Of a stretch of DNA of 16,051 nucleotides, positions 7,441 through 7,875 are shown one piece after another (the first letter of the stretch is position 1; each line of letters opens with the position of its first letter). Location: the NCBI GenBank assembly GCA_003697085.1, contig RFFU01000104.1:1-16051 (forward strand), in the 5' to 3' direction. This stretch comes from Candidatus Hydrogenedentota bacterium. GTDB lineage: Bacteria > UBA8481 > J006. Under the pieces are notes generated by a model, which saw only the letters and a program-made list of their open reading frames with translations, ran no database searches and was not told the DNA's origin. Position numbers and translations under genes: made by a program.

Positions 7441-7875
7441 TCAAAAGTCGTCATCGTCGTCGTCGTCATCGTCGTCATCGTCGTCGTCATCGTCGTCATC
7501 GTCGTCGTCGTCATCGTCGTCATCGTCGTCGTCATCGTCGTCGTCGTCGTCGTCATCGTCGTCGTCATCATCGTCATCATCGTCATCATCATCGTCGTCG
7601 TCATCGTCGTCGTCATCTCCCCCCCAATTAACGCCGAGAGCCTCAGCCAGCGTAGCACGCCCCTTAGCCAGGGTCGCAGGAAGGTTCTCGAACGGCTCCT
7701 TCCAGAACGGAACGAAGGCCGGGAAGACCCAGAAGACCGTCGCGGTCAAAAGAGTCAAGACGATGATGTACTCTGTGAGAGAAACACCTTCCTCCACCTT
7801 TCGACAAAGGCGCCGAAGAAGAGGTTCCTCTTCTCTTTCCTTCCCTTTCCCGTCAACCAAGTCAGGCAATAACAT
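7441..7875 (-). CDS. Flp-type prepilin with C-terminal polyaspartate tail
   Basis: The ATG at 7875 follows AAAGGAGG with six bases between; an in-frame TTG six bases earlier overlaps that site and is rejected. The product has 144 residues. A basic/acidic leader of 30 residues ends in Gly30, followed by VSLTEY, so Glu is at +5 and Tyr at +6 of the predicted mature protein, as in Flp/Tad prepilins cut by a TadV-like peptidase. A hydrophobic helix (about 37-58, IIVLTLLTATVFWVF) follows, then a short amphipathic stretch to GVNWGG. Residues 87-143 are 57 consecutive Asp, and a single Phe ends the protein. The leader is longer than usual, and the tail is unlike any pilin I know. The gene lies 12 bases after the TPR gene, whose stop codon overlaps this ribosome site, so translation is likely coupled. 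Whether it polymerises or acts as a minor pseudopilin cannot be told. Confidence 0.85.
   Translation of the reverse strand: MLLPDLVDGKGKEREEEPLLRRLCRKVEEGVSLTEYIIVLTLLTATVFWVFPAFVPFWKEPFENLPATLAKGRATLAEALGVNWGGDDDDDDDDDDDDDDDDDDDDDDDDDDDDDDDDDDDDDDDDDDDDDDDDDDDDDDDDDF
7447..7617. repeat. Trinucleotide tract encoding 57 Asp
   Basis: 171 bases made only of GTC and ATC on the plus strand, read as GAC and GAT by the pilin gene. I count 39 GAC and 18 GAT, often in GAC-GAC-GAT order. The tract ends one codon before the stop. It also creates long plus-strand poly-Ser and poly-Val/Ile frames that are artefacts. Slippage would change tail length in three-base steps without breaking the frame. Confidence 0.95.

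Follow-up and report, generated by a model that had tools for sequence, protein, structure and literature searches.

A predicted Flp-class prepilin ending in a tract of 57 aspartates in a Hydrogenedentota genome

The gene and its surroundings

The window analysed here is a stretch of 16,051 nucleotides from the draft genome of a Candidatus Hydrogenedentota bacterium. It carries a gene for a small prepilin-like protein, referred to as the poly-Asp pilin, whose C-terminal part is one unbroken run of aspartates (table 1). The text 5' of the gene reads AAAGGAGG-TTGGCT-ATG. The leader, MLLPDLVDGKGKEREEEPLLRRLCRKVEEG, contains basic residues, and the body between leader and Asp run is VSLTEYIIVLTLLTATVFWVFPAFVPFWKEPFENLPATLAKGRATLAEALGVNWGG. 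Aspartate accounts for exactly half of the 114-aa mature protein, which has a net charge of -58. The initial annotation described this gene correctly, both in its coordinates and in its parts: ribosome site, leader, Gly cleavage point, Glu+5/Tyr+6, helix, 57 Asp and final Phe. Its estimate that about 40% of the protein is Asp agrees with a direct count, 40% of the precursor.

Table 1. Features of the poly-Asp pilin locus, in window coordinates.
Feature	Position	Strand	Basis
Intrinsic terminator 3' of the pilin gene, GGCGGGAGCG..CGCTCCCGC then TTTTTTT	7301..7330	-	Fold -21 kcal/mol (z -1.5 against shuffles), T run; spotted by eye, absent from terminator-scanner output
Gene of the predicted Flp-class poly-Asp prepilin	7441..7875	-	144-aa ORF, ATG at 7875, TGA at 7441; ribosome site; Flp HMM
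Terminal Phe codon and TGA stop	7441..7446	-	Sequence
57 Asp codons (39 GAC, 18 GAT)	7447..7617	-	Direct count; tandem-duplication signature
Mature Flp domain (56 aa) with Glu+5/Tyr+6 and a hydrophobic helix, then a short second helix; ..ALGVNWGG end	7618..7785	-	Alignment, HMM, AlphaFold2
30-aa leader ending in Gly (class III signal peptide)	7786..7875	-	RRLCRKVEEG^VSLTEY; canonical Flp alignment
Ribosome binding site of the pilin gene, AAAGGAGG	7882..7889	-	Read directly in the sequence
Exported TPR protein, 194 aa, co-directional, ending 12 nt 5' of the pilin gene	7888..8472	-	ORF; weak YfiO/BamD-type TPR match
Terminator-like hairpin with a T run on each side, at the upstream boundary of the probable two-gene unit	8659..8676	-	Scanner, sequence

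In the simplest reading, the poly-Asp pilin and the TPR protein are probably encoded by a two-gene unit. The start codon of the TPR gene was picked by its GGAGGAAGGAG site, and its product has an N-terminal signal-like helix without a lipobox Cys. No match to a tad gene was found in Pfam or NCBIfam among the window genes examined, and the poly-Asp pilin is not beside a tad locus. A location in or next to a tad locus is common for Flp pilins, but it is not defining, and the genome's ordinary flp genes too are scattered, on other contigs. A conserved operon was not found in the only same-order relative, a Candidatus Hydrogenedentes CG07 MAG (PEWQ01, here G001). No clear relative of the TPR partner lies near the corresponding pilin there, on a contig that begins 230 nt before the pilin gene. 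The TPR protein that does adjoin the G001 pilin has only weak similarity to a second TPR protein of the window (9212-9862, minus strand).

Other features of the window were noted in passing. The two window TPR proteins have similar N-termini (ILNF after Trp) and may be paralogues (BLASTP E 2e-4). Between their genes, positions 8820-9210 look non-coding and resemble a dispersed intergenic repeat. At the window edge, a minus-strand frame of at least 759 aa (3-2279), which runs off the end, encodes a signal-like peptide and 61-aa repeats (SVRAKDIVGGITMDTITSVRVQTLVGK...). These repeats correspond to a 183-bp tandem array, and similar text occurs on another contig of the genome (C133, L080:15682-16380).

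Relation to Flp pilins and the Tad apparatus

Neither Pfam, including Flp_Fap, nor NCBIfam names the poly-Asp pilin, and a local Flp profile was therefore built. It comprised seven unmodified Flp pilins from the window genome, G001 and other genomes; the window protein and all modular Flp pilins were excluded. Among 2577 ORFs, this HMM finds the poly-Asp pilin with an E-value of 2.1e-6 (24.7 bits). In the alignment, the cleavage site, Glu+5 and Tyr+6 of KVEEG^VSLTEY stand in register with those of canonical Flp pilins. With the poly-Asp pilin included, a profile also gives matches to two Tad pilins of solved structure, 8u1k and 8u2b. Searches for membership of other classes were negative. No N_methyl match, in Pfam or NCBIfam, points to the GFxxxE-type methylation motif of type IVa pilins and T2SS pseudopilins, and neither PF07811 nor PF13400, which would indicate TadE/F/G membership, matches the protein. 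AlphaFold2 places helices at residues 33-62 and 65-79 and leaves the tail without structure; the confidence of this model is low (mean pLDDT 58), and it supports the helices only. The 56-aa body, predicted to be helical at that same low confidence, fits the small helical format of Flp pilins; the 58 added residues do not.

The genome encodes the machinery that such a pilin would need. A Tad locus on contig C14 comprises a TadA-type ATPase, two T2SSF proteins, a ParA/TadZ-like protein, a secretin and an RcpC homologue, and contig C70 carries two TadE-like proteins and one TadG-like protein in a row. One prepilin peptidase was found in the genome, with an A24 N-terminal domain. Three ordinary Flp pilins, ending A(A/S)LSAG(I/V)Y, are encoded on contigs C50 and C89; one ordinary Flp pilin is 89% identical to its counterpart in G001. 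ATPases of the type IVa/T2SS type are also present, and no sequence link between the poly-Asp pilin and the C14 machinery was found. The assignment of the protein as a Flp-class (Tad/type IVc) prepilin is nevertheless well supported by sequence comparison, and very probably correct. On this point the initial annotation is strengthened by the independent HMM and by the presence of Tad machinery and a prepilin peptidase in the same genome.

Compared with Caulobacter PilA (8u1k) and other Flp/Fap pilins, the window protein is alike in its Gly cleavage site, Glu+5/Tyr+6, single hydrophobic helix, mature body of normal length and accompanying Tad machinery. It differs by its 57-Asp tail and Phe, the absence of a Pfam Flp_Fap match and a site away from the Tad locus. 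In the Caulobacter Tad pilus, the same Glu and Tyr form inter-subunit hydrogen bonds and the pilin C-terminus is directed outward (PMC11067988); a C-terminal tail would therefore point away from the filament.

Two parts of the Tad apparatus have sequence features of their own. The RcpC homologue (L078:15086-16282) contains a TSP3 repeat above the Pfam cut-off. The TadE-like proteins (L293:230-4096) contain Asp-rich DxDxDG stretches, recognized by eye; their EF-hand matches in Pfam are below threshold. Together, the repeat and the stretches may be hints of a Ca2+ theme in the Tad apparatus.

Flp pilins are usually regarded as tiny, domain-less rods. The count of residues past Glu+5 indicates how the poly-Asp pilin departs from this format: 48 in an ordinary C50 pilin and 49 before the Gly-Gly of the poly-Asp pilin, so that poly-Asp is appended to a complete Flp pilin, with no part replaced. 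The best match in G001, on contig C37, combines a Flp body with a DUF4114 domain C-terminal to it (31.7 bits). The two proteins share the G^VSxxEY start and a similar body, but in G001 DUF4114 stands in the place of an acidic run and the neighbour genes are different. Orthology is not proven, because the neighbourhoods differ. The tail appears to be lineage-specific. The initial annotation had named homologues without an acidic tail in close relatives as evidence that would count against it. The G001 protein is such a homologue and tells in part against it, in a comparison that covers one same-order genome. Against solved structures, the DUF4114 part of the G001 pilin gave only marginal or meaningless matches.

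Further C-terminal modules occur at the equivalent position. A paralogue in the window genome (C115, L086:1283-2143) is a Flp-class pilin extended by a long Ser/Thr stalk and by a C-terminal domain; its counterpart in G001 (C39, L269:1686-2537) has undetermined bases within the stalk. A Flp pilin of another genome (G073 C75, L280:399-785, minus strand; Pfam 41 bits) has a low-complexity basic tail of Lys, Gly and Ala, KSKGKAKSKGKAKGKDKAKGKGKAKGKV. The charge of that tail is opposite to the charge of the window pilin tail. One Flp pilin of genome G061 ends in a domain of the 3-keto-disaccharide hydrolase type. With other modules at this position in relatives, the window protein is read as a modular Flp pilin with a polyanion display module. 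As judged from these predicted proteins, C-terminal modules recur on Flp pilins, and in the window lineage the module is a homopolymer. Tad pilus tips with exchangeable domains, carried by minor pilins of the TadE/F/G type, have been described for the Kil system of Myxococcus (PMC12075869). The shared idea is a Tad pilus equipped through exchangeable C-terminal modules. The Kil tips are TadE/F/G-type proteins with folded domains, whereas the window protein is of the Flp type with a homopolymer.

The aspartate tract and other poly-aspartate proteins

The tract is the only run of at least 20 Asp codons in the 3.2-Mb genome. Runs of this length were found in 8 of 386 genomes sampled across bacteria, the window genome included, and at this rarity chance in ordinary coding sequence falls far short of explaining the run. 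Inside the tract, the longest exact repeat spans 51 nt, its copies being offset by 45 nt. Only 1.35% of codon shuffles contain a repeat this long in codon order, a rarity indicative of in-frame tandem duplication. The 18 codons that depart from GAC all read GAT, a synonymous change, and non-synonymous changes are absent. This pattern is suggestive of selection for Asp and does not prove it; the signal is limited because duplication makes the 18 GAT codons non-independent. The codon pattern alone also carries no strand information, since TCG/TCA on the opposite strand encodes poly-Ser. The minus strand is favoured by the ribosome site, the homologous body and the terminator.

A second poly-Asp prepilin was found in an unrelated phylum. 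In genome G205 (L092), a FimU/GspH-like prepilin, with GspH and N_methyl matches, ends in GGGG-D46 with a few Gly interruptions afterwards. Its gene lies directly 3' of PilV-like, PilW and PilX genes; PilV, PilW and PilX are a known set of type IVa minor pilins. Like the window protein, it is of the prepilin class, with a Gly linker and C-terminal poly-Asp. It differs as a minor pilin of type IVa style with a globular domain of the GspH type, and the two are presumably of independent origin. Besides G205, 23 genomes of its phylum were sampled, and none of them has a poly-Asp run of this kind; no pilin was found among the poly-Asp ORFs of viral contigs. No other poly-Asp pilin was seen among about 100 Flp matches in 241 genomes, of which those with long open frames were translated.

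The initial annotation knew of no described pilin of this kind. For the literature this stands, in that no paper describing a poly-Asp pilin was found; among genomes, the G205 protein is a second case. The existence of two independent poly-Asp pilins hints at a shared use, although a count of two is weak statistics because one of them was the starting point. The broader proposition is that poly-Asp tails are convergent polyanionic pilus tips, on Flp-class and FimU/GspH-like pilins alike, which serve as cation-dependent adhesion modules and change length rapidly by repeat duplication. It is distinctly unlikely in this full form.

Poly-Asp also occurs outside pilins. In genome G332 (contig C1, L035), long Asp runs with a few Glu are inserted mid-chain in a trigger-factor-like protein. 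In genome G315 (L038), overlapping poly-Asp matches number in the hundreds; one example is a protein with an N-terminus like that of a lipoprotein and a run of 70 Asp.

Subunit role, alternative readings and proposed function

All the residues that a major Flp pilin needs for assembly are present in the poly-Asp pilin, and the initial annotation had envisaged subunit tails coating the filament. In that case every subunit would carry a tail and the filament would be a polyanionic bottle brush. Glu+5 and the helix do not discriminate between a major and a minor subunit, but two other considerations weaken the idea. The three ordinary Flp pilins of the genome are better candidates for the major pilin. 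Space is the other consideration: for Tad systems, the published width of the pilus is 4.2-4.5 nm and that of the RcpC pore about 5 nm (PMC11067988, PMC12307814). With three pilins assumed per 14.7-Å layer, dimensions from other species, and hydration and counter-ions ignored, the annular gap in the pore is calculated to hold tail volume for about 23-36% of subunits. Tails on all subunits would not fit such a conduit. Full decoration would also amount to about 116 negative charges per nm, compared with about 6 for DNA, or about 20 times DNA by this calculation. Borrowed dimensions without hydration or counter-ions argue against a brush rather than exclude it, and a brush is improbable. The gap volume and the ordinary Flp pilins together favour a minor subunit, perhaps one at the tip; this role is moderately supported and probable. 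It is quite improbable that the tract is an artefact of assembly or length, or that the gene is not translated as read. The length is the least certain part of the description, since 171 nt exceeds a 150-nt read and the assembly is a draft of 145 contigs. The tract is irregular, however, with 18 interruptions; k-mers above 51 nt are unique, and an assembler with k above about 51 could pass it. The plus strand has an open poly-Ser frame of 193 codons (7310-7891). This frame was rejected as a gene: it starts within the terminator hairpin and is antisense to the pilin, and we know of no relative of it. The pilin frame is intact, with its ribosome site, homologous body and terminator.

The main rival to cation-dependent adhesion is neutral or nearly neutral trinucleotide expansion. 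On this view a genuine minor pilin had a short acidic end, which replication slippage and tandem duplication lengthened; the C-terminus would tolerate the growth, and the length would have no function. The period-3 tract with its rare internal repeat is what such growth would leave, the one homologue from the same order lacks the tail, and poly-Asp runs in other genomes lie in unrelated places, such as the interior of the trigger-factor-like protein. Set against this are the uniformly synonymous departures, 18 of 18, although they are non-independent through duplication and an antisense poly-Ser frame would look alike. The reading frame is also intact through the last codon, and the independent poly-Asp tail of another minor pilin is interrupted by Gly only. 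Neutral expansion is thus a serious reading, if a somewhat unlikely one. The tail might instead be a nucleic-acid mimic that could repel or gate DNA at an uptake pilus. Single-strand DNA-binding proteins have C-terminal acidic tails that end in an aromatic residue, and the poly-Asp pilin likewise ends in Phe after an acidic run; several C-terminal Asp runs also occur in viral contigs. The window protein is a predicted exported pilin, though, and no cytosolic DNA-binding protein, and one Phe codon ahead of the stop carries little evidential weight. Mimicry of nucleic acid is extremely improbable.

The preferred reading is that of a Flp-class prepilin with an added C-terminal module, acting as a minor subunit with a putative cation-dependent polyanion tail. 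As a whole it is tentative and falls a little short of probable. (i) The leader would be removed by the single prepilin peptidase found. (ii) Through its helix the protein would be incorporated into a Tad filament as a minor subunit, with a probable position at the tip or close to it. (iii) The tail, a disordered polyanion with a length of about 20 nm, would hang outward. (iv) In the least certain step, the tail may act via divalent cations (Ca2+ or metals), with salt-dependent bridging to mineral, polysaccharide or another acidic surface. (v) The Asp run would have grown by in-frame duplication and been kept acidic by selection. Disordered polyanions are capable of binding Ca2+ or metals, of adsorbing to minerals or of repelling other polyanions. 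A cation-dependent adhesion module is favoured on the grounds of this polyanion chemistry, the Asp-rich calcium-type motifs in Tad parts, and the link between His/Asp-rich low-complexity regions and metal binding in prokaryotes (PMC6821194). The putative cation role of the tail, plausible from chemistry and weakly supported, is possible rather than probable.

A natural pilin with 57 aspartates permits a direct test of how much charge and bulk can pass a Tad secretin and alignment complex. It also allows the action of divalent cations at pilus tips to be tested. A tail built from repeats could differ in length among strains and so tune surface attachment. The same Flp rod bears poly-Asp, a Ser/Thr stalk or DUF4114; Flp subunits, and not TadE/F/G proteins alone, may therefore carry display modules.
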